A stretch of 35,449 nt of DNA, taken from NCBI GenBank assembly GCA_028868695.1, contig JAGWTZ010000034.1:1-35449 (forward strand), given 5' to 3'. Under the pieces are notes generated by a model. That model did not search any database. It worked only from the letters and a program-made list of their open reading frames with translations, and had not been told where the DNA came from. The translations under genes and the position numbers were made by a program. Positions within the stretch are counted from its first letter, which is position 1, and every line of letters starts with the position of its first letter. Of the stretch, positions 2,097-35,449 are shown piece by piece. The stretch is from Alphaproteobacteria bacterium. GTDB taxonomy: Bacteria > Pseudomonadota > Alphaproteobacteria > Rhizobiales > Aestuariivirgaceae.

Positions 2097-3110
2097 ATGA
2101 GCATTTCGATTGGAAAAGTGCGTGTCAGGAACCGGGTATTCCTCGCACCGATGTCGGGCGTGACGGACGAGCCCTTTCGCCTCGCGGCTCATGACGCCGG
2201 GGCAGGGCTCGTTGTTTCCGAGATGGTGGCATCCGAAGAGTTGGCGCGTTCACGGCGCGACATGGTGCGGCGGGCGCGGGGCGCCAAGCGGCTTTCACCC
2301 TTTGTGATCCAGCTTGCTGGCCGCGAAGCGAGGTGGATGGCAGAGGGCGCCAAGGTGGCCCAGGACATGGGCGCAGACATCATCGACATCAACATGGGTT
2401 GCCCGGCCCGGCAGGTGACGGGCGGGCTCTCAGGTTCGGCGCTCATGCGCAACATTGATCACGCCATCACGCTGGTTGAAGCGACAGTTGGTGCAGCCAC
2501 AGTTCCAGTGACCTTAAAGATGCGGCTTGGATGGGATGAGAAATCCCTTAACGCGCCAGAACTCGCACGGCGGGCCGAAGGAGCAGGCATCGCCATGATC
2601 ACTGTGCACGGGCGCACGCGCTGCCAGTTTTACACTGGCAAGGCCGTTTGGCGTGCCATCCGCGCCGTGCGCGAGGTAATCAAGGTTCCGCTCGTTGCAA
2701 ATGGCGATTGCCAATCCGCTGATGACGCGCGCGAGATGATGTCGCTCTCCGGCGCTGACGCGGTGATGATTGGCCGTGGCGCCTATGGCAGGCCCTGGTG
2801 GCCCGGCGTGGTGGCTGAGGGGCTGGAAAAGGGCAGCGGCTGCGCAGCGCCAAACCTGCAGCAGGAGCGGGATGTTTTGCTGCAGCAGCATGAGGCCTGC
2901 CTGATGCTTTATGGCGCTGCCTTGGGGAACAAGAATTTCCGCAAGCATCTTGGCTGGACACTCACCCGGCTGGCCGAGAGGGGGCTGCTCAGCGCTGAAG
3001 ACCTAGTGGGCCTGCGCGGAACGCTGATGACCGAACATGACAACGCCGCAGTGGCGCACCGCATTGCCGAAGTGTTCGACTGCTGCGCGGCAGGGGAGGC
3101 GGCGGCATGA
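2097..3110 (+). CDS. dusB: tRNA-dihydrouridine synthase DusB (NifR3)
   Basis: The 337-residue protein is an FMN-dependent tRNA dihydrouridine synthase that reduces uridines in the tRNA D-loop. The TIM barrel opens with FLAPMSGVTDEPFR. The catalytic cysteine is in DINMGCPARQV (about residue 101), VHGRTRCQFYTG is the RNA/FMN-contacting stretch, and the phosphate-binding end is GADAVMIGRGAYGRPW. It is the first gene of the ntr cluster, the position that earned it the name nifR3 in Rhodobacter. Its stop overlaps the ntrB start (ATGA, 3107-3110). The ATG at 2097 has no strong Shine-Dalgarno sequence, but no better start exists. Confidence 0.95.
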   Translation: MSISIGKVRVRNRVFLAPMSGVTDEPFRLAAHDAGAGLVVSEMVASEELARSRRDMVRRARGAKRLSPFVIQLAGREARWMAEGAKVAQDMGADIIDINMGCPARQVTGGLSGSALMRNIDHAITLVEATVGAATVPVTLKMRLGWDEKSLNAPELARRAEGAGIAMITVHGRTRCQFYTGKAVWRAIRAVREVIKVPLVANGDCQSADDAREMMSLSGADAVMIGRGAYGRPWWPGVVAEGLEKGSGCAAPNLQQERDVLLQQHEACLMLYGAALGNKNFRKHLGWTLTRLAERGLLSAEDLVGLRGTLMTEHDNAAVAHRIAEVFDCCAAGEAAA

Positions 3111-22071: not shown

Positions 22072-23012
22072 GCGGCCTTGTCCAAGTGCTTCCTGAAAAA
22101 GGCGATGTCATCCTCGATGAGGTAGTCATTCTCCACGCCCCAGAAGCAGTGGTCGGCGCCGGGCACGCGCTGCAAGGTGACATCACAGCCCTTGGCTTTC
22201 ATGGCGTGGTATAGTTCCTCGCCCTGCTCGAAGGGCACCAGCCTGTCCTTGTCGCCATATTGCAGCAGCATGGGCGGGGCCTTCTTGCTCGCGTAGGTGA
22301 TGGGCGAGGCTTCGCGGGCCTTGTCCTTCCGTTTCATCAGCGGGCCACCCACCAGCCAGCTTTCCGACGATTGCGGGTCGTTGGTGTTGCCAAGGCTGCG
22401 CAGCTTTTCCTTGTGCTTCTGCATGGTGAGGAAGTTGGTGGGGCCAAACCAGTTGACCACGCATGACACAGCGCTGGAGCCTCGTGTTTCGCCAATCTTG
22501 CCTTCCAGCTTGCGGTTGCCGCCAGTGAGGCCAACCATGGCCGCCAGATGCCCGCCGGCGGAATCGCCCATCACTGCTAAACGGTTGGGATCAACACCGA
22601 AGATGGCCGCATGCTTTCGCAGATAGCGGATGGCGGCCTTGCAGTCATGCAACTGGGCAGGAAAAGGCGCTTCCTTGCTCAGGCGGTAGGAGATGCGGGC
22701 CACGGCAAAGCCGGCCTTGTGGAAGCGGTTGTGGAAATCCAGCTTCCGGTAAAGCGGGTTGGTGATGACAGGAGAACCCATGCACCAGCCGCCACCATGG
22801 ATGAAGACGATCAGCGGATGCGGGCCTGCGCCGGCGGGAACCGCCACTTCCATCAGCAGCGGCCTGAAGCCCAGGGGCTGCGCGAAGGTGACGTCCCTGA
22901 ACAGCTTGCCACTCAGCGGATGTGCCTCGGGGTGGTGCAGCGGCCAGTCGTAATCCTGCGCGATGTCCTGAAACAGGGCTTTGAAAGAGGCGGCAGAACC
23001 GGGCTTGGCCAT
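22068..23012 (-). CDS. Alpha/beta hydrolase (esterase/HSL-like)
   Basis: A 314-residue alpha/beta hydrolase of the hormone-sensitive-lipase/BD-FAE type. The oxyanion motif is FIHGGGW, the nucleophile serine is in GDSAGGHLA, the acid is probably in [15 protein letters not shown], and the histidine is in GADHCFWG. There is no signal peptide, so it is cytoplasmic. The substrate is unknown: a small ester, perhaps an acylated amide or formamide. I use the ATG at 23010-23012, which forms TGATG with the regulator stop; a GTG directly before it (23013-23015) would add one residue. It is co-transcribed with the XRE-cupin regulator, which may respond to its substrate or product (inference). Confidence 0.88.
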
Positions 23013-23623
23013 CACTGCGCCCCAAACTGCTTGAGCGCCAGCATCATGATGGCGTGGGCCTCGCCCTGCCCGACATTGACGATGCGGTGCGGAACATCGG
23101 CGCGGTAACGCAGCGCTTCACCTGTCTTGCCCAGCTTGGCTTCACCGCCTGTGGTCACTTCCAGCTCGCCGGATACGATATAGAGGTGCTCGATGGTGCC
23201 GGGCGGATGCGGCGAGGATTCAAGTACGCCTTTCTCCTTGGCGTGAAAGTCATACCACTGGAACACATCCACAAGGTTAAGCGGACCCGCGATGGCGAGG
23301 CGGCACAGCCCGTCCTGGCTTTCCAGCATGGGAATGCCGGATTTCTGCTGGTGGTCAATGAACAGCGATTGCTGTTCGCCGCGCAGAACTTCATCCACCG
23401 TGGTGTCCAGGGCACGCGACAGGCGGACGACCGTGGAAAGGGTTGGGTTTGTTTCATTGCGTTCGATTTGCGAAATGATGGATTTGGCGACGCCCGATTG
23501 CTCCGAAAGCTCGCCAAGCGAGAGGTTGTAGGCCTTGCGCAAGCGCTGGATGGTTTTGCCGAGGTCGGCGCCGGTTTCCTCTGAGGATTTGACGTTGGTT
23601 TTGGGAATGCGGCGGCTTGACAT
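23012..23623 (-). CDS. XRE-family regulator with C-terminal cupin domain
   Basis: A 203-residue transcription regulator. The XRE helix-turn-helix covers about residues 24-80 (LSLGELSEQSGVAKSIISQIERN) and the C-terminal cupin about 125-195 (PPGTIEHLYIVSGELEV, YRADVPHRIVN). Cupin-linked XRE proteins sense small ligands; E. coli SutR, tied to sulfur use, has this architecture. I chose the ATG at 23621-23623, preceded by GAGAGA; the longer frame begins with TTG. It is divergent from the cys operon across 148 bp containing inverted repeats, so it may control both directions (inference). Its stop overlaps the hydrolase start. Confidence 0.9.
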   Translation of the reverse strand: MSSRRIPKTNVKSSEETGADLGKTIQRLRKAYNLSLGELSEQSGVAKSIISQIERNETNPTLSTVVRLSRALDTTVDEVLRGEQQSLFIDHQQKSGIPMLESQDGLCRLAIAGPLNLVDVFQWYDFHAKEKGVLESSPHPPGTIEHLYIVSGELEVTTGGEAKLGKTGEALRYRADVPHRIVNVGQGEAHAIMMLALKQFGAQ

Positions 23624-23640: not shown

Positions 23641-23665
23641 AGAACCGGTGTTCTGTATAACGAAC
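23641..23665. promoter_or_regulatory. Overlapping inverted repeats, candidate XRE-cupin operator
   Basis: The perfect inverted repeat AGAAC-CGGT-GTTCT occupies 23641-23654. Its right arm is shared with a second one, GTTC-TG-TATA-AC-GAAC (23650-23665). The minus-strand TTATAC within it could be the -10 of the regulator gene, starting 18 bp further downstream. Three evenly arranged GAAC half-sites are what a dimeric, autoregulating XRE protein might bind. Binding is inferred. Confidence 0.45.
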
Positions 23666-23723: not shown

Positions 23724-23771
23724 TAGTTTGGTGAAAGGAACGGGCGGCAAGCACCGGCAATGGAGCCTGCG

Positions 23772-24776
23772 ATGCGGTATTTCCCGCTGTTCTATGATCT
23801 GGACGGCCGTCACGTGGTTGTGGTGGGCGGCGGTGAAGAAGCGCTGCGCAAGATCCGCTTGTTATTGAAAACAAACGCCAAAATCCATTTGGTTGCGGGT
23901 GAGTTGCCGCATGAGCTTGCCGGTGTGGTTCAGGTTCAACTGGTGGCGCGCAGCTATGACGCGGCGTTGCTGCAGGGGGCAGCGCTCGTTCTTTCTGCCG
24001 ATCAGGGCCTCAATGCGCAGGTTTCGGCCGATGCCATGGCGCTGGGCATTCCGGTCAATGCCGTCGACCAGGCCGAGATTTCCAGTTTCATTGTTCCCTC
24101 GATCGTGGACCGTTCGCCGGTTGTGGTGGCCATCGGCACCGAAGGGGCGGCCCCGGTTCTGGCCCAGGGCTTGCGGGCGCGCATTGATGCGCTGCTGCCG
24201 GAGAATCTGGGCGCATTGGCCAGCCGCGCCGCGAATCTTCGCAACTGGGTTGGGACCAAGATCCCAGCAGGCGCGGCGCGCCGCGGCTTTTGGCATGACT
24301 TCTTCTTTGGCACGGTGGCCGAAGCGGCCCGGGACAATGATGAAGTTGCCATTGAACTGGCTGTGGGTGACGCTGCCTTCAACCATCTGCATGGGGCCAA
24401 GGGCCGTGTGTCGCTTGTTGCTTCACTTGGCGATGCCGAACTGATCACCCTCAAGGCGCAGCGCCGCCTGATGGAGGCCGATGTTATTTATCTCGGCAAG
24501 GGCTTCAACCCTGCTCTCCTTGAAATGGCGCGGCGGGATGCTGAACGCGTGGCCAGTGTGGATGGCGCCGCAGTCCTGGCGTCTGCCCATCAGGGCAGGA
24601 ACGCCGTGGTTCTCTCCCGGCAATTTGAAGACGCGCTCATTTGGAAGCTGGAGGCCGAAGGCCTGCCTGTTGAAGCGCTGGGTTTCAACAAGCCGGAGCC
24701 AACTTCCCAAAGCGCGTCTGACCCCTTCCCCGTGCGCGAGGATCTTCGCGCCGCATTGTTACAGGCTGCATCATGA
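23772..24776 (+). CDS. cysG: CysG-like precorrin-2 dehydrogenase/ferrochelatase with remnant SUMT domain
   Basis: A 334-residue protein. The N-terminal half (about 1-150) matches the CysG dehydrogenase/ferrochelatase: NAD-binding VVVVGGGEEALRKI, the Asp in NAVDQAE, FIVPSIVDRSPVVVAIGTEG and PVLAQGLRARI. This part makes siroheme from precorrin-2. A dimerisation region follows. The last ~100 residues resemble only the beginning of uroporphyrinogen-III methyltransferase (LGDAELITLKAQRRLMEADV...RRDAERV). The GxGPGD SAM loop is lost and the protein ends long before a full ~250-residue domain. Methylation must then come from another enzyme. The start at 23772 has GGAG six bases upstream; an ATG at 23760 is less likely. 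It overlaps the DUF2849 gene by 4 bp. Confidence 0.85.
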   Translation: MRYFPLFYDLDGRHVVVVGGGEEALRKIRLLLKTNAKIHLVAGELPHELAGVVQVQLVARSYDAALLQGAALVLSADQGLNAQVSADAMALGIPVNAVDQAEISSFIVPSIVDRSPVVVAIGTEGAAPVLAQGLRARIDALLPENLGALASRAANLRNWVGTKIPAGAARRGFWHDFFFGTVAEAARDNDEVAIELAVGDAAFNHLHGAKGRVSLVASLGDAELITLKAQRRLMEADVIYLGKGFNPALLEMARRDAERVASVDGAAVLASAHQGRNAVVLSRQFEDALIWKLEAEGLPVEALGFNKPEPTSQSASDPFPVREDLRAALLQAAS

Positions 24777-25111
24777 GCACAATTGAAAAAGGTCAGGTGA
24801 TGACCGCGAACCGTTTGGGCGATGGCTTGGTTGTTTTCCTCAACCGCGCCGGAAACTGGAGCGAGAAGATCGACGAGGCCACGCTGGCGCTTGAGCCGCA
24901 GGCGGCAGCGGCGCTGGAGGCATTGGCCGCACAGGACGTGAAAGCCAATTACGTCACCGGAACCTATCTGTTCGATGCCGAGCGGGTGGATGGCAGGATC
25001 AAGGCCAGCCACATCCGTGAGCGCATCCGCACCTTGGGGCCCACCATCCGGGTTGACCTAGGAAAACAGGCTGAAGGCAAGGCCGGCGCATTCGCGGCGG
25101 AGGAGGCATAA
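24773..25111 (+). CDS. DUF2849 family protein (sulfite-reduction operon)
   Basis: A 112-residue protein recognised as DUF2849 by TANRLGDGLVVFLNRAGNWSE, EALAAQDVKANYVTGTYLFD and SHIRERIRTLGPTIR. No biochemical function is known. The family is found in alphaproteobacteria directly before the sulfite/nitrite reductase hemoprotein, so it may be an accessory or assembly factor for CysI (inference). It is small, soluble and without cysteines, which argues against a ferredoxin-like carrier. The start overlaps the cysG-like stop (ATGA) and the stop overlaps the cysI start by one base. Confidence 0.85.
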   Translation: MSTIEKGQVMTANRLGDGLVVFLNRAGNWSEKIDEATLALEPQAAAALEALAAQDVKANYVTGTYLFDAERVDGRIKASHIRERIRTLGPTIRVDLGKQAEGKAGAFAAEEA

Positions 25112-26766
25112 TGTACCGTTACGATGAATTTGACGCCAAGTTTGTGAACGAGCGCACCGCGCAGTTCCGCGACCAGGCCAACCGCCGCCTCAAGGGCGAA
25201 TTGACGGAGGACGAGTTCCGCCCCTTGCGCCTGATGAACGGCCTTTATTTGCAGCTGCATGCCTACATGCTGCGCGTGGCCATCCCCTATGGCACGCTGT
25301 CGGGCGCGCAGATGCGCCAGCTCGCCTACATCGCCGAGAAGTGGGACAAGGGCTACGGCCATTTCACCACCCGCCAGAACATCCAATACAACTGGATCAA
25401 GCTGGAAGACGCGGCAGACATCCTGCAGGCGCTGGCCGATGTCGAGATGCATGCCATCCAAACCTCGGGCAACTGCATCCGCAACGTGACCACCGATCAT
25501 TGGGCGGGTGCTGCAGTTGACGAGTTGGCGGACCCACGCCCGGTGGGCGAGTTGATCCGCCAGTGGTCGTCCTTGCATCCGGAATTCTCTTACCTGCCGC
25601 GCAAGTTCAAGTTTGCGATCACCGGCGCGCCGCATGACCGCGCCGCTGTGAAGGTGCATGACATTGGCCTGCGCCTGCACAAGAATGCGGCCGGTGATCT
25701 GGGCTGGGAAGTGCTGGTGGGCGGTGGCCAGGGGCGCACGCCGCTGGTGGCCGTGACTGTGCGTGAATTCCTGCCGCAGAATGAGCTGGTGGCCTATCTC
25801 GAGGCCATCATGCGCGTTTACAATCTCTATGGCCGCCGCGACAACAAATACAAGGCGCGCATCAAGATTCTGGTGCATGAGCTTGGTGCCGAAAAGTTCC
25901 GCGCCGAGGTGGAAGCGGAATACGCCAAGCACCCCGCACAGCAGACGCAGGTGGAAGAGGCCGAGCTGGCGCGCATTGCCAAATATTTTGCCCTGCCCAG
26001 CTTCGAGAAGCTTTCTCGCTTTGCGCCGCACTTTGAAGACGCGAAGCTCAGCACCCCCGAATTCGCCCGCTGGGCGCGCAACAATCTCGCCGCCCACCAG
26101 GTGGATGGCTATACCATCGTCAACATCTCGCTGAAGCCCGAGGGTGGCATTCCCGGCGACGCAAGCGCTGAGCAAATGCGCGTGATGGCGCGGCTGGCCG
26201 AGCGCTATTCGCACAATGAATTGCGCGTTTCGCACGCGCAGAACATCGTGCTGCCGCATGTCAGGCTGGAAGACGCCTTCGAGGTTTGGAAGGCGCTGAA
26301 GGAAGCTGATCTGGCCACTGCCAATTATGGGCTGGCGGGCGACATCATCGCCTGCCCCGGCTTGGATTATTGCTCGCTGGCGACGGCGCGCTCGATTCCT
26401 GTTGCCCAGGCCATCAGCCGCAAGTTCGCTGATCTCGACAAGCAGCAGGATTACGGTCCGCTCAAGATCAACATCTCGGGCTGCATCAATGCCTGCGGCC
26501 ACCATCATGTCGGGCACATCGGCATTCTCGGCCTCGACAAGAAGGGCGAGGAATATTACCAGATCACGCTTGGTGGCTCATCTTCCGAGCACGCCTCGAT
26601 CGGCACGATTCTGGGCCCCGGCTTTGCCGCCGATGAGGTGCCGGACGCCATCGAGACTATTCTCAACACCTATGTGAAACTGCGGCATTCGGGAGAGGAT
26701 TTCCTCTCGGCCTATCGCCGCGTGGGGCCGAAGCCCTTCAAGGAGGCGCTCTATGCCGCTGCTTAA
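25111..26766 (+). CDS. cysI: Sulfite reductase hemoprotein (nitrite/sulfite reductase family)
   Basis: A 551-residue siroheme/[4Fe-4S] enzyme that reduces sulfite to sulfide with six electrons. Cluster ligands are Cys415 and Cys421 (CPGLDYC) and Cys458 and Cys462 (GCINAC). Two ferredoxin-reductase-like half-domains and siroheme-contacting arginine/lysine motifs (GHFTTRQNIQYNW, TSGNCIRNVT) are present. It has a strong Shine-Dalgarno sequence (GGAGGAGG). No cysJ flavoprotein gene is present in the operon, so the electron donor is probably ferredoxin or an unlinked reductase (inference). Ferredoxin-nitrite reductases share the family; the cysH neighbour favours sulfite. Confidence 0.93.
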   Translation: MYRYDEFDAKFVNERTAQFRDQANRRLKGELTEDEFRPLRLMNGLYLQLHAYMLRVAIPYGTLSGAQMRQLAYIAEKWDKGYGHFTTRQNIQYNWIKLEDAADILQALADVEMHAIQTSGNCIRNVTTDHWAGAAVDELADPRPVGELIRQWSSLHPEFSYLPRKFKFAITGAPHDRAAVKVHDIGLRLHKNAAGDLGWEVLVGGGQGRTPLVAVTVREFLPQNELVAYLEAIMRVYNLYGRRDNKYKARIKILVHELGAEKFRAEVEAEYAKHPAQQTQVEEAELARIAKYFALPSFEKLSRFAPHFEDAKLSTPEFARWARNNLAAHQVDGYTIVNISLKPEGGIPGDASAEQMRVMARLAERYSHNELRVSHAQNIVLPHVRLEDAFEVWKALKEADLATANYGLAGDIIACPGLDYCSLATARSIPVAQAISRKFADLDKQQDYGPLKINISGCINACGHHHVGHIGILGLDKKGEEYYQITLGGSSSEHASIGTILGPGFAADEVPDAIETILNTYVKLRHSGEDFLSAYRRVGPKPFKEALYAAA

Positions 26767-27283
26767 GAATGATGCCTTTGTGAATGACGCCTGGGTGAGC
26801 CTGGCGGATGACGCGGAAGTGCCGGAAAACGGCTCCATCATTGTGTCACTCGCGCGGCTTGAACGGGATTGGGATCAGCTGGTCAGCTTCACCGGCCTGT
26901 TGGGCGTGCGCCTGACCAACACTGACAAGGTGGAGGCGCTGGAATCCTACATCTCGCAGATCACGCTGGTGGTGCTGCCATTCCCGGCCTTTGCCGACGG
27001 CCGCAGCTATTCCATCGCCCGCGGCTTGCGGCTTGATGGCTACCGCGGCGAATTGCGTGCTGAAGGGAATGTCCTGCCTGACCAGCTTCAATACATGCGC
27101 CAGGTGGGGTTTGACTCCTTTGCGGTGAGTGACCGCTTCCCCCTGCAGGTCTGGCAGTCGGCGGGCAAGCAGATGTCCTTGGCTTATCAGCGCGGGCTGT
27201 TCCGGGCCGCCAATGAGGCCGAGGTGTGGTCGGCCCGCCACCGCGGGTTTGAGCCATGGGAAGAGCAGCCCCATGCCGGTTGA
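26753..27283 (+). CDS. DUF934 family protein (sulfite-reduction operon)
   Basis: A 176-residue DUF934 protein, recognised by DGRSYSIARGLRLDGYRGELRAEGNVLPDQLQY (positions about 83-115) and the following GFDSFAV. The family is conserved in proteobacteria between cysI and cysH, but its biochemical function is not established; it is sometimes labelled 'oxidoreductase' from context alone. It has no cysteines, signal peptide or membrane segments. It overlaps cysI by 14 bp and cysH by 11 bp, implying tightly coupled translation and perhaps fixed stoichiometry with both. Confidence 0.88.
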   Translation: MPLLKNDAFVNDAWVSLADDAEVPENGSIIVSLARLERDWDQLVSFTGLLGVRLTNTDKVEALESYISQITLVVLPFPAFADGRSYSIARGLRLDGYRGELRAEGNVLPDQLQYMRQVGFDSFAVSDRFPLQVWQSAGKQMSLAYQRGLFRAANEAEVWSARHRGFEPWEEQPHAG

Positions 27284-28037
27284 TTCACCCGTCAAGCAGA
27301 ACGAGGTTCTGGAAGCTTATGCCGGGCTTGAAGGACGCGGGCTGATCGCTGCCTTCGCGCGGGATTTCAAGGGCCGTGTAGCGCTGCTGTCATCCTTTGG
27401 CGCTGAATCCTCCGTGCTGCTGCACATGGTTTCGGAAGTGGACAAGCATATTCCGGTGATCTTCCTCGACACGCTGAAGCTCTTTCCCGAGACGCTGGCC
27501 TACCGTGACAGGCTGGTGCGCGAACTGGGATTGCGCGACGTGCGCGTGGTGCAGCCCAATGTTCTCGACATCGAAATGGAGGACCCGGCGGGCACGCTGC
27601 ATCTTTCAAACCCCGACCGGTGCTGCGCCATCCGCAAAACGCTGCCGATGGACAAGGCCTTCAAGGGTTTTGACGTGATGATCTCCGGGCGCAAGCGCTT
27701 TCATGGCGCAACGCGGGCGGATTTGCGCTTCATCAGCTTTGATGAAAGCCGCATCAAGATCGAGCCGCTGGCCGCCTTCTCGGCGCTCGATCTGCAGACC
27801 TACATGGTGCAACGCGCCCTGCCCTCGCATCCCCTGAAGCTCGCCGGCTATCATTCGATCGGCTGTTCGCCCGCGGCATGCACCGCCAAGGGCGGCAGTG
27901 CGGAAAACCCGCGCGAAGGCCGCTGGATGGGGCAGGAAAAAACCGAGTGCGGCATCCATTTCACCGCCAATGGCAAGATCATCCGCACCGCAGCGCGGGG
28001 CGAGCCGGAACGCATGCGTGAAGCGGCTGTGGCTTGA
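27273..28037 (+). CDS. cysH: Adenylyl-sulfate reductase, thioredoxin-dependent (CysH)
   Basis: A 254-residue reductase releasing sulfite from activated sulfate. The nucleotide-binding LLSSFGAESSVLLH is followed by FLDTLKLFPET. The cluster-binding Cys117-Cys118 pair (RCCAIRK) marks the [4Fe-4S] APS-reducing type rather than the E. coli PAPS type, and the catalytic cysteine is Cys226 in ECGIH. The second ligand pair is Cys198 and Cys203, spaced C-x4-C instead of the usual C-x2-C. I chose the ATG at 27273; upstream in-frame sequence is not family-like. Neither cysD/N nor cysC is in the window. Confidence 0.92.
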   Translation: MPVDSPVKQNEVLEAYAGLEGRGLIAAFARDFKGRVALLSSFGAESSVLLHMVSEVDKHIPVIFLDTLKLFPETLAYRDRLVRELGLRDVRVVQPNVLDIEMEDPAGTLHLSNPDRCCAIRKTLPMDKAFKGFDVMISGRKRFHGATRADLRFISFDESRIKIEPLAAFSALDLQTYMVQRALPSHPLKLAGYHSIGCSPAACTAKGGSAENPREGRWMGQEKTECGIHFTANGKIIRTAARGEPERMREAAVA

Positions 28038-28086: not shown

Positions 28087-28977
28087 ATGCCATCGCTAGA
28101 TACTGCTGCCTATATCCTGATTTGCATTTCGTTGTTTGCGGCCTTCGTGAATGGTGCCATCGGCTATGGCTATTCCTCGCTCACCGTGCCGCTGGCGCTG
28201 GTGTTCTACACGAACCGTGTGTTGAATCCCGCCATTGTCATCATGGAGGTGTTCATCAACCTCTATGTGTTGTTCATAAACCGCAAGGGCGTTGCGGCCG
28301 TGTGGCGGCGGGTGTTGCCGATTCTGGTCGGGCTTTTGCCGGGCGTTGCAATTGGCGCCGCGGCCCTGGCTTCGGTTCAGCCGGGCTATATCAAGCTTGT
28401 GACCTATGTTCTGATATTGCCGCTGATTCTCGTTCAGGCGGCAGGCTGGCGAAAGCCAGTTGAATCAAGCTGGCTTGTGGGCCTGCCTTTCGGGTCCGGC
28501 CTTGGCGTCCTGTATTCGCTGACCACTATTTCGGGGCCACCACTTGCGATCTTGTTCAACAACCAGGGGCTGGTCAAAAGCGAGTTCCGCGCCGGGCTTG
28601 CCTTGGTGCGCACCGTTGAATCCACGGTGACAGCCATATTCTACTATAATCTCGGGTTGTTCATCACCGAGAGCGTCAGCACGGTCTCTTTGCTGGCAGC
28701 AGGCGTGGTGATCGGCATTCCGCTCGGCTCATTTGCGATCCGGCGGCTCGACGCTGAAACGTTCCGGCGCATCTGCATGAGCTTCGATGCCTGGGTGGTG
28801 GGGTTCGGTCTGTCGCGGGTGCTGATTGAGCTCAAGCTGGCCCCAAGCCCATGGGCCTATGCCGTCATGGCGGGCACCATCCTGATTGACTGCGCCCTGC
28901 TCTACAGATTCTTTGCCGCGCACAGGAATCCGCGTCCGCTAACCCAGGACGAAGCCAGCGAAGAGCCGCTTCTTTAG
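28087..28977 (+). CDS. TauE/SafE-family permease (possible sulfite exporter)
   Basis: A 296-residue membrane protein with about eight hydrophobic segments. The N-terminal motif AAFVNGAIGYGYSSLTVPLAL and its mirror around TTISGPPLAILFNNQGLVKSEFRA are the inverted-repeat signatures of TauE/SafE transporters. Members move sulfite, sulfoacetate or other small organic anions. Placement directly after cysH suggests relief of sulfite toxicity (inference). The ATG at 28087 has GGAA six bases upstream; a TTG at 28075 is less likely. It is separated from cysH by 49 bp and converges on metZ with a 38-bp gap. Confidence 0.88.
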   Translation: MPSLDTAAYILICISLFAAFVNGAIGYGYSSLTVPLALVFYTNRVLNPAIVIMEVFINLYVLFINRKGVAAVWRRVLPILVGLLPGVAIGAAALASVQPGYIKLVTYVLILPLILVQAAGWRKPVESSWLVGLPFGSGLGVLYSLTTISGPPLAILFNNQGLVKSEFRAGLALVRTVESTVTAIFYYNLGLFITESVSTVSLLAAGVVIGIPLGSFAIRRLDAETFRRICMSFDAWVVGFGLSRVLIELKLAPSPWAYAVMAGTILIDCALLYRFFAAHRNPRPLTQDEASEEPLL

Positions 28978-29015
28978 CTGCTTAAGCGGTTTCGCCGGCG
29001 TGCTGTGGCAATAGC

Positions 29016-30221
29016 CTAGCTGTTGACTGACAGGGCCTGCTTCAGGTCGGCAATCAGGTCAGCCGCATCTTCAAGGCCCACCGAGAGGCGAAGGCAGCCG
29101 TCCTTGATGCCCATCAGGGCGCGGGCTTCCGGGCCGATGTTTTTGTGCGTGGTGGTGGCCGGATGGGTGATCAGGGATTTGGAATCACCGAGGTTGTTGG
29201 AAATGTCGATGACCTTCAGGCGGCGCAGCACATTGAACGCCTGCTCCTTGGCACCCTTCACATCAAAGGCCACCATGGTGCCGCCAAGGCGCATCTGCTT
29301 TTTTGCCAGCGCGTATTGGGAATGCGATTGGTGATGCGGGTAATAGACGCGTTCGACCTGCGGGATGGAGGCCAAGGCGTCAGCGATTTCCGCCGCCGAC
29401 TTGCATGAGGCTTCGACACGCAGCTTCATGGTTTCCATGCCCTTGAGAAGAACCCACGCGTTGAAGGGCGAAAGCGTGGGACCGGTGTGGCGCAGGAAGG
29501 GCTTCAGCAGTTCTTCCTTGAACTTCTGGGTGGAGAGGATCATGCCTCCGAAGACGCGGCCCTGCCCGTCCGTGTGCTTGGTGTTTGAGTAGAACACGAT
29601 GTCTGCGCCCAGCTCCATCGGCTTTTGCAGGATGGGTGTGGCGAACACATTGTCCACCACCACCCTGGCGCCCGCCGCGTGGGCGACGCGCGAGATCATG
29701 GCAACGTCCAGCACCTCAAGCAGCGGGTTTGACGGGGTTTCGAAGAACACCACCTTGGTTTGCGGCTTCATGGCAGCCTTCCAGGCGGCCTCATCATTGC
29801 CCGCCACCAGTGTGTAGGTGATGCCGAAGCGCGGCAGGATGTTAGTGATCACCTGATAGTTGGAGCCGAAAAGATCCTTGGAGGCAACGACATGGTCACC
29901 CGCCTTCAACTGGCAAGCCAGCGCGCCCCAGGCGGCAGCCATGCCAGAGGCCACGGCATAGGCGGCTTCGGCGCCTTCCAGCAGGCGGAAGCGCTCTTCC
30001 AGCATCGAGACGGTGGGGTTGCCATAGCGGCCATAGACATAACCCTCCTCTTCGCCGGAGAAACGGCGTTCGGCCGTTTCCGGGTCGTCATAGACATAGC
30101 CGGAGGTGAGATACATGGCTTCTGAGGTTTCACCATGCTCGGAACGGCTGAGGCCGCCGCGCACCAGCTTGGTCTGGTCGCCCCAACCGGTGGGGTTTTG
30201 TTTTTTGGTGTATTTGCCCAT
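29016..30221 (-). CDS. metZ: O-succinylhomoserine sulfhydrylase
   Basis: A 401-residue PLP enzyme of the cystathionine gamma-synthase family. The PLP lysine is Lys215 (YSNTKHTDGQG). Cofactor contacts are YGRYGNPT, ASGMAA and ETPSNPLLEV, and the C-terminus has SLITHPATTTH and RLSVGLED. The GQGRVFGG stretch after the lysine resembles MetZ, which condenses O-succinylhomoserine with sulfide to give homocysteine. This would use the sulfide made by CysI on the other side of the permease gene. I looked for a SAM-II riboswitch upstream and saw none. The rhodanese gene ends 63 bp upstream on the same strand. Confidence 0.93.
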   Translation of the reverse strand: MGKYTKKQNPTGWGDQTKLVRGGLSRSEHGETSEAMYLTSGYVYDDPETAERRFSGEEEGYVYGRYGNPTVSMLEERFRLLEGAEAAYAVASGMAAAWGALACQLKAGDHVVASKDLFGSNYQVITNILPRFGITYTLVAGNDEAAWKAAMKPQTKVVFFETPSNPLLEVLDVAMISRVAHAAGARVVVDNVFATPILQKPMELGADIVFYSNTKHTDGQGRVFGGMILSTQKFKEELLKPFLRHTGPTLSPFNAWVLLKGMETMKLRVEASCKSAAEIADALASIPQVERVYYPHHQSHSQYALAKKQMRLGGTMVAFDVKGAKEQAFNVLRRLKVIDISNNLGDSKSLITHPATTTHKNIGPEARALMGIKDGCLRLSVGLEDAADLIADLKQALSVNS

Positions 30222-30284
30222 GGGTCAATTCTCTCGTTCCGGCGGGAGTGAGCGCGCCGCGTATATCTTGTGTTGAGTGGGGGC

Positions 30285-30686
30285 CTAGCTTTGCACCCAG
30301 GGCAGTCCGGCGGCCTTCCAGCCGTTGGTCTTGGCGCGGTGGCCGCTGGCGTCCTTGTCGCCCTCGAAGCCCTGGGCCACGTTCCAGCAATTGGTGAAGC
30401 CGGCCTGGGCCAGAGCCGTGGCGGCGGAAGCCGACCGCGCGCCGGAGCGGCAGATGCAGAAAATCTCGGCGTCCTTGGGCAGGCCCATGGCGGCCACTTC
30501 CTCGGAAAAGCGGGCATTCACGTCCATGGTCGGGTAAACCTGCCAGGACAGGCGAACCAGCCTGTCGACCTGCGGCACGCCCACAAAGGTCCATTCCGGC
30601 TGGGTGCGGACGTCGATCAGCACCGCGGCAGGGTTGGCCTTGAGGCGTTGATGGACCTCGGCTGGAGGAAGATCACCTTTGTACAT
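30285..30686 (-). CDS. Rhodanese-domain sulfurtransferase
   Basis: A 133-residue single-domain rhodanese. The structural start is VLIDVRTQPEW and the active-site loop is CRSGAR with Cys79 as the probable persulfide carrier; a second cysteine lies two residues before it. The C-terminus is NVAQGFEGDKDASGHRAKTNGWKAAGLPW, split here around a family-typical GFEG...GWKxxGLPW ending. The protein is cytosolic. It precedes metZ on the same strand, so it may supply or detoxify reactive sulfur near methionine synthesis (inference); its donor and acceptor are unknown. Confidence 0.93.
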   Translation of the reverse strand: MYKGDLPPAEVHQRLKANPAAVLIDVRTQPEWTFVGVPQVDRLVRLSWQVYPTMDVNARFSEEVAAMGLPKDAEIFCICRSGARSASAATALAQAGFTNCWNVAQGFEGDKDASGHRAKTNGWKAAGLPWVQS

Positions 30687-30779: not shown

Positions 30780-31070
30780 TCAGATTTCGGCGACAACCGG
30801 GCCCGAGACCGGGTCTGTCACTCCCAGCCCGCCGCCCAAATCTTCCAGAAGATCGCGGAACCCGTCGAGGATCCTGATCATGTTGGGCCGCGCCGCAGCG
30901 ATGGCCTCAAAGTTGCTCCACTTGCCGATCAGGCAATAGCTGCGTTCGCCCGTCTTGATCAGGGCCACGTCTTCCATGCCCGGTTCGCGGGGGAAATTCT
31001 TGTGCATATCAATGAATTTGGCATCTTGGCCTGCCTTCACCCTAAAGCGCACGACATTGTAGGCTTTCAT
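30780..31070 (-). CDS. Small ABM-like (dimeric alpha/beta barrel) protein
   Basis: A 96-residue protein starting MKAYNVVRFRVKAGQDAKFIDMHKN, with a later SYCLIGKWSNFEAI strand-helix. This is typical of the antibiotic-biosynthesis-monooxygenase-like dimeric alpha/beta barrel superfamily. No catalytic residues can be assigned, and the family includes many proteins of unknown role. The ATG at 31068-31070 has GGAGG six bases upstream, so I reject the longer frame (58 more residues). It is divergent from the large flavoprotein gene and 93 bp upstream of the rhodanese gene. Confidence 0.75.
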   Translation of the reverse strand: MKAYNVVRFRVKAGQDAKFIDMHKNFPREPGMEDVALIKTGERSYCLIGKWSNFEAIAAARPNMIRILDGFRDLLEDLGGGLGVTDPVSGPVVAEI

Positions 31071-34883: not shown

Positions 34884-34981
34884 GTGGTGCGGCATTTGCG
34901 TTCTTCTCGCTGTTGATTTGGTTCTTTATTCCGAACGCATTTCGCGCTATGGATTTCAGGTGTTTTCAAAGGGAGGCCGGA

Positions 34982-35449
34982 ATGGCACTGCAACTGGGCG
35001 ACATCGCGCCGGATTTTGAAGCCGACACCACGGAAGGGCGCATCCGCTTTCACGATTACATCGATGGTTCGTGGGCGATGATCGTCTCCCACCCCAAGGA
35101 TTTCACCCCGGTCTGCACCACCGAGCTGGGCTCCATGGCGGCCAAGAAGCCGGAGTTTGACAAGCGCGGCGTGAAGATGATCGGCATTTCGGTGGACAGC
35201 GTGGACGACCATCTGCGCTGGAAGAATGACATCAAGGATGTGACTGGCGCTGCCGTCACCTATCCGCTGATCGGTGACACGGACCTGACCGTGGCCAAGC
35301 TTTATGGCATGATCCACCCCAATGCCTCCGGCAACGCCAAAAGCCGCACCGCGGCCGACAACGCCACGGTGCGCAATGTGTTCATCATCGGGCCGGACAA
35401 GCGGATCAAGCTGATCCTCACCTATCCGATGAGCACGGGCCGCAATTTT
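34982..35449 (+). CDS. 1-Cys peroxiredoxin (Prx6-like), 3' end beyond window
   Basis: 156 codons of an open frame running off the window. The start MALQLGDIAPDFEADTTEG has GGGAGG seven bases upstream. The peroxidatic cysteine is Cys45 in FTPVCTTEL, and SVDSVDDHLRWKNDI with YPLIGD places it in the Prx6/AhpC-TSA 1-Cys subfamily rather than typical 2-Cys AhpC. It reduces hydrogen and organic peroxides. About 60 C-terminal residues are expected to be missing. It is preceded by a 98-bp gene-free region in which I see no confident promoter. Confidence 0.93.
   Translation, partial: MALQLGDIAPDFEADTTEGRIRFHDYIDGSWAMIVSHPKDFTPVCTTELGSMAAKKPEFDKRGVKMIGISVDSVDDHLRWKNDIKDVTGAAVTYPLIGDTDLTVAKLYGMIHPNASGNAKSRTAADNATVRNVFIIGPDKRIKLILTYPMSTGRNF

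Follow-up and report, generated by a model that had tools for sequence, protein, structure and literature searches.

A TauE/SafE-superfamily permease as candidate sulfate importer in the exchangeable last position of an alphaproteobacterial sulfate-reduction operon

Described transporters and the layout of the locus

The TauE/SafE (TSUP) superfamily is already known to include sulfate importers. CysZ of Corynebacterium glutamicum was concluded from mutant growth to be a high-affinity sulfate transporter, and the authors state, in the available part of the paper, that biochemical proof was lacking (PMC1266029); the protein has been assigned to TSUP according to an excerpt of PMC5840216. In excerpts of a further study (PMC11535334), an E. 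coli cysA mutant is restored by a TauE homolog, and a sulfate assimilation operon contains a gene related to that homolog. A report on a Magnetospirillum TauE-like protein and sulfate assimilation (PMC7676999) was set aside as a precedent, its available text drawing no link between the two.

We analysed a stretch of alphaproteobacterial DNA of 35,449 nucleotides, referred to as the window, which is the whole of contig 101 of a 3.09-Mb genome of 99.7% completeness; its features are collected in Table 1. A regulator gene on the minus strand, with its likely start ATG at 23623, is divergent from a plus-strand run in which the cysG-like gene is followed by the DUF2849 gene, the gene of sulfite-reductase type, the DUF934 gene, cysH and the permease gene. 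Then come metZ and the rhodanese gene on the minus strand, and past them a divergent gene which we take, from domains matched by profile, to be sarcosine/dimethylglycine dehydrogenase-like. The original prediction had placed a TauE-like permease 49 bp past cysH, and its coordinates and spacing were exact: the last base of cysH is 28037, and the permease gene starts on the same strand with the ATG at 28087, its product matching PF01925 over the cut-off. The convergent metZ and rhodanese were likewise rightly named and placed, 38 bp separating permease and metZ and 63 bp separating metZ and the rhodanese gene on their common strand.

Table 1. Features of the window, with the basis of each assignment
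Feature	Coordinates	Strand	Basis
XRE-type helix-turn-helix regulator with C-terminal cupin	23012..23623	-	PF01381 53.6 bits, PF07883 41.3 bits
Palindrome GTTC-N8-GAAC, putative operator, regulator/cysG interval	23650..23665	.	exact match
CysG-like siroheme synthase, short C-terminal methylase domain	23760..24776	+	TIGR01470 202 bits vs 62.3
DUF2849 protein	24773..25111	+	PF11011 84.3 bits
Siroheme sulfite/nitrite reductase-type protein, cysI position	25111..26766	+	PF01077 and PF03460
DUF934 protein	26753..27283	+	PF06073 101.7 bits
cysH, phosphoadenylyl-sulfate reductase	27273..28037	+	NF002537 230.4 bits vs 154
Permease of type TSUP-B, TauE/SafE superfamily; probably a sulfate importer	28087..28977	+	PF01925, relatives' context, all-helical model
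metZ, O-succinylhomoserine sulfhydrylase	29016..30221	-	TIGR01325 over cut-off
Rhodanese with a single domain, upstream of metZ and co-oriented with it	30285..30686	-	PF00581 over cut-off
Second GTTC-N8-GAAC palindrome, before peroxiredoxin start	34921..34936	.	exact match
Peroxiredoxin (AhpC/TSA family), runs past window end	34982..35449	+	PF00578 110.8 bits

The metZ product scored 543.8 bits with TIGR01325 (cut-off 510.05); the MetZ models NF005870 and NF005696 gave higher scores, yet under their own cut-offs. The rhodanese reached 46.3 bits with PF00581 (cut-off 22.2) and contains a CRSGAR loop with a cysteine, presumably the active-site loop. The query of the cysH profile search started at the second codon, and the reductase-type protein was under the cut-off of each NCBIfam model that it matched. 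In the CysG-like protein PF00590 was matched at positions 9-68 of 212 only, below cut-off; the N-terminal dehydrogenase/chelatase and dimerisation parts are kept, the methylase is reduced to a short stretch, and the alignment length is similar in several relatives in the genus. A small ORF (30780-31070) without a Pfam match, which is kept in some relatives, was observed between the rhodanese and dehydrogenase genes.

The window permease, whose type we named TSUP-B, is similar in length to CysZ (309 residues, in the available part of PMC1266029) and, like it, is encoded by the last gene of an operon that includes cysH, a likeness of description and gene position; the C. glutamicum operon, unlike that of the window, also has cysD and cysN. 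It also resembles, by description, the TauE-family sulfate importers TK06_RS10770 and Ac3H11_578 (excerpts of PMC11535334), which could match a second subfamily of the genus, TSUP-A, rather than TSUP-B. The common strand and the short gap make co-transcription of the permease gene with the cys operon probable. In the proposed scheme the permease would bring in sulfate, CysD, encoded elsewhere in this genome, and its partner would activate it, and the CysH step would then give sulfite, to be turned into sulfide by the CysI-type reductase, for which CysG would supply the siroheme. The convergent rhodanese-metZ pair would be a unit of its own in which sulfide is built into homocysteine, the established role of the MetZ family. 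That the permease is a TauE/SafE sulfate importer in a replaceable last position of the sulfate-reduction operon is the account that we consider probable, though well short of certain.

Family, relatives and substrate of the permease

The permease was matched by the TauE model PF01925 with an E value of 8.6e-24 and 84.9 bits (cut-off 32.6), which places it in the TauE/SafE superfamily, and its start agrees with that of its relative in another genome of the genus (G012). The structure model was predicted, at moderate confidence, to be all-helical, with 12 helical elements (mean pLDDT 75.6, pTM 0.74). No solved homolog was found by sequence or by fold at E 0.001 or better; 22 of at least 80 TSUP-B relatives were the input to the structure alignment.

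The TSUP-B relatives came from a scan of genome contigs, which gave at least 80 loci, and cysH, cysI, cysG, cysC, cysK and sat were searched around them within 6 kb. Among the matches listed, such a marker was present at 27 of 80 (a raw rate, two of them by cysK alone), or at 26 of 79 once L099, the locus of G012 itself, had been removed. An Rrf2-type regulator was near 18 of 80 of the matches listed, and either an Rrf2-type regulator or a cys marker near 37; all these neighbourhood counts are lower bounds because many contigs stop early. As in the window, cysH immediately precedes TSUP-B in six of the listed loci, which come from Myxococcota, Rokuibacteriota, Elusimicrobiota and Acidobacteriota. 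In five Nitrospirota MAGs (L117, L123, L127, L128 and L131) the gene next before TSUP-B, 6 to 40 bp away, encodes an Rrf2-type regulator.

The original prediction had linked the permease to sulfur, which the cys neighbours bear out, and had let it export sulfite, a direction drawn from the family name; genomic context and the published relatives lead us to favour sulfate import instead. A sulfite exporter would relieve the build-up of sulfite when CysH outpaces sulfite reductase, and the Pfam family is indeed named for such exporters, the gene follows that of CysH, the maker of sulfite, and the superfamily includes one sulfite and one sulfoacetate exporter (excerpts of PMC11535334). However, the relatives from other phyla that neighbour cysH or sat, and the sulfate importers known in the superfamily, fit import at least as well, and we regard export of sulfite as unlikely. 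The TauE and SafE exporters of sulfite and sulfoacetate, with which the window permease shares the PF01925 superfamily, act in sulfonate breakdown, whereas the neighbours of the window permease are sulfate reduction genes.

A tree was built by a quick search from 79 of the at least 80 TSUP-B loci, together with the window's permease and three rows of TSUP-A; the truncated L159 was left out. Among the matches listed, the window permease fell into a clade of 31 rows (SH-aLRT 99) that includes G012, and the other 29 members, mostly from Bradyrhizobium, had no cys marker in their available flanks (up to 6 kb, some short), a point against the sulfate importer reading. Because the present copies of its lineage are not cys-linked, the association of this permease with cysH probably formed anew in the lineage of the window. 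The Bradyrhizobium copies away from cys genes would also suit an importer of another sulfur anion, such as sulfite, thiosulfate or a sulfonate, or one of broad range, as would the breadth of the superfamily and the finding that a C. glutamicum strain mutated in cysZ fails on both sulfate and sulfite (available part of PMC1266029). When the ORF lists of the window were read, however, no gene of a sulfonate or thiosulfate pathway was noticed beside the permease, and we hold such a substrate to be quite improbable.

Exchange of membrane proteins after cysH

The same-genus sample comprised 37 genomes, the window's included, and cysH was found in 33 of them, a thirty-fourth match (in G061) being excluded as weak and of the CysD kind. 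In these 33 genomes the slot after cysH held TSUP-A, a PF01925 subfamily of about 253 residues, in 17, a DUF2061 protein in seven, TSUP-B in two and none of these in the remaining seven. The three slot proteins were mutually exclusive, never two occurring in one cysH genome, and every match to them in the genus, at the thresholds used, was located at cysH. TSUP-A and TSUP-B are distant from each other, since no listed TSUP-B match at E 0.001 was a TSUP-A locus. The flanks in G012 and G022, made up of cysH on one side and of metZ, rhodanese and dehydrogenase on the other, were 80-91% identical to those of the window, and between these matching flanks the slot was occupied by TSUP-B in G012 and by DUF2061 in G022. 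TSUP-A of G004 lies about 0.9 kb from cysH, with another ORF between, and in G022 (L041, about 2520-3100) a pyridoxamine-phosphate-oxidase-like gene on the opposite strand was seen between DUF2061 and metZ.

A close TSUP-B match (E 1e-20 or better) was present in only two of the 37 genomes, those of the window and G012, which, together with nearest kin that are not cys-linked, is what a chance insertion after cysH, without a role in sulfur metabolism, would look like. But the same slot holds TSUP-A or DUF2061 in 24 other genomes, neither of them being found away from cysH in those genomes at the thresholds used, and the TSUP-B frame is open in both holders, with 79% identity between them; we consider an insertion of this sort very improbable.

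Beyond the genus, TSUP-A, TSUP-B and DUF2061 were absent from all 107 order-level cysH loci (in the stretches examined, one per genome), a search in which same-genus loci served as positive controls and which a quite different permease would escape. The absence of the slot proteins outside the genus limits the generality of the exchange. In one genome of another family (G145, L240) the same layout of cysH, metZ and rhodanese was observed without any of the three.

The slot was also compared with the sulfate ABC permease CysT. All ten same-genus cysH genomes without CysT had a filled slot, and all seven with an empty slot had CysT, a weak pattern (one-sided Fisher p 0.057, for genomes that are related and not independent); the presence of CysT in G060, G067 and G068 was scored from fragments. 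Lack of CysT does not require the slot, because in the wider order CysT was missing from 59 of 107 cysH genomes, and none of the 107 cysH loci had a slot protein. With 130 bits, a mark of our own, as the limit of a strong SulP match, six of the ten genomes without CysT fell below it (G043, G047, G062, G012, G031 and G058). No SulP match was obtained in the first three (G062 being 82% complete); G012, the other TSUP-B holder, had no CysT match over the cut-off and a SulP fragment of 43 residues only, and the weaker SulP matches of G031 and G058, at about 80 and 76 bits, still exceeded the Pfam cut-off. Two SulP genes are present in the genome of the window, which therefore has another possible route for sulfate. 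CysT was present in five of the seven DUF2061 genomes, and for this small predicted membrane protein of about 85 residues a role as stand-alone carrier is unlikely; the accessible parts of the literature searched gave no tie between DUF2061 and sulfate transport.

The GTTC-N8-GAAC palindrome and the XRE-cupin regulator

Among the 18 same-genus loci with the upstream region available, the window included, 17 had the XRE-cupin gene beside cysG and 17 had the 16-bp palindrome between the two genes; in G031, with its upstream region available, neither was found. This count was made on 21 same-genus regions, of which G053, G056 and G067 were left out at a contig end. The window contains four exact matches to the palindrome against 0.33 expected, situated before cysG, before the peroxiredoxin gene, inside the regulator gene and inside another ORF, which we take to be methionyl-tRNA-synthetase-like; the last two had low weight-matrix scores. 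The matrix had been trained on the 17 cysG sites, which fit by construction, and was used with a threshold of 14 bits. When 582,509 bases of same-genus loci were scanned, 30 sites reached the threshold, 16 of them training sites, against one in a base-shuffled copy. In the window and 20 regions there were likewise 30 sites, comprising 17 before cysG, a second one there in G048, nine at peroxiredoxin genes, two at rhodanese genes and one in G053 without an assigned gene.

The palindrome preceded the peroxiredoxin gene in all nine loci that have this gene, at 33-44 bp (45 bp in the window, by coordinates). It also preceded the sulfate-binding-protein gene, at a spacing of 60-70 bp, in G022, G039 and G004, the three testable among four CysT loci, G034 being cut by the contig end; the G004 site has the exact core and the same spacing at 9.4 bits, below the 14-bit threshold. 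Its position before sulfate ABC transporter genes weighs in favour of a sulfate importer in the slot and further against a sulfite exporter there. In G004 the sulfate-binding-protein gene is immediately preceded by an ORF (L345 4601-5083) that looks, by eye, like an Rrf2-type regulator gene. For the order-level cysH loci, a site anywhere in the stretch was present in all six with a homolog of the regulator and in five of the 101 without (p 2.6e-7), the six not being independent because four of them belong to one family (f21).

These positions make the divergent XRE-cupin protein the probable regulator of the cys operon, with a predicted binding site at the palindrome before cysG. SutR (YdcN) is an XRE-cupin protein as well, and the window regulator resembles it in being tied to sulfur use, a likeness of description. 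In E. coli SutR is a regulator of sulfur use (cited in PMC8464067, available in part). No XRE-cupin sulfur regulon of the present kind was found in the literature searched, among the matches listed. A regulator and an operator are thus proposed for sulfate assimilation in the genus.

Of the 30 metZ loci examined from the 37 genomes of the genus, 28 have the rhodanese gene next to metZ, with a gap of -1 to 63 bp and the ends often touching; the two exceptions, G041 and G052, are both without cysH. Distances between metZ and cysH in the 33 cysH genomes were up to 1.5 kb in 17, up to 10 kb in two and more than 10 kb in eight, and the genes were on different contigs in six. This gene layout is more than chance, given the 28 of 30 adjoining pairs and the 17 of 33 genomes with cysH within 1.5 kb of metZ. 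The palindrome lies before the rhodanese gene in 14 of the 28 loci, 8 bp from the start in 13 of them, and before that of G145, from another family, where five sites of 14 bits or more were observed around the locus. Outside the 14 is L091, with an exact core before the rhodanese gene at 7.3 bits; the upstream sequence of L082 covers 146 bp only. It is missing before the rhodanese gene in the window, G012, G022 and G065. The joint control of these sulfur genes suggested by the original prediction thus holds in relatives, through the shared palindrome, but only in part in the window, where it is not supported for rhodanese-metZ. The handling of persulfide that it had assigned to the rhodanese is possible, and the rhodanese may deliver or clear sulfane sulfur.

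A wider arrangement may be considered, in which the slot would be a position for sulfate uptake filled by any of the three membrane proteins, DUF2061 included, and uptake, reduction, fixation by rhodanese-MetZ and the peroxiredoxin would form one XRE-cupin regulon at GTTC-N8-GAAC. We put this forward tentatively and hold it to be rather doubtful. For the permease, sulfate importer replaces the family-name label of sulfite exporter with one that can be tested, a modest addition to known sulfur biology, and the shared slot gives a handle on the function of DUF2061.

Other signals in the window were considered and rejected. As to riboswitch control, a search of the window with Rfam gave no family at or above its gathering score, and the counts of consensus sigma-70 promoters and terminators between genes were uninformative. 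The sequence TTGACAT before cysG, a candidate -35 box, reads on the opposite strand as the beginning of the regulator gene (ATGTCAA), and because of this overlap its conservation is not promoter evidence; a combined promoter-plus-operator pattern had no match in the window.

In the genome of the window, neither SulP locus had a palindrome site of 14 bits or more, and the same was found for 12 loci around cysD matches (L330 and L333 to L343), the five that were checked with NCBIfam (L330, L334, L335, L340 and L342) being named CysD. The CysD frames of L330 (3477-4625), L334 (6919-8031) and L340 (6530-7657) are longer at the N terminus by about 70-80 residues, in a stretch that is alike between genomes, lies outside the CysD models and is missing in L335 and L342; either a misplaced start codon or a genuine additional domain may account for it.
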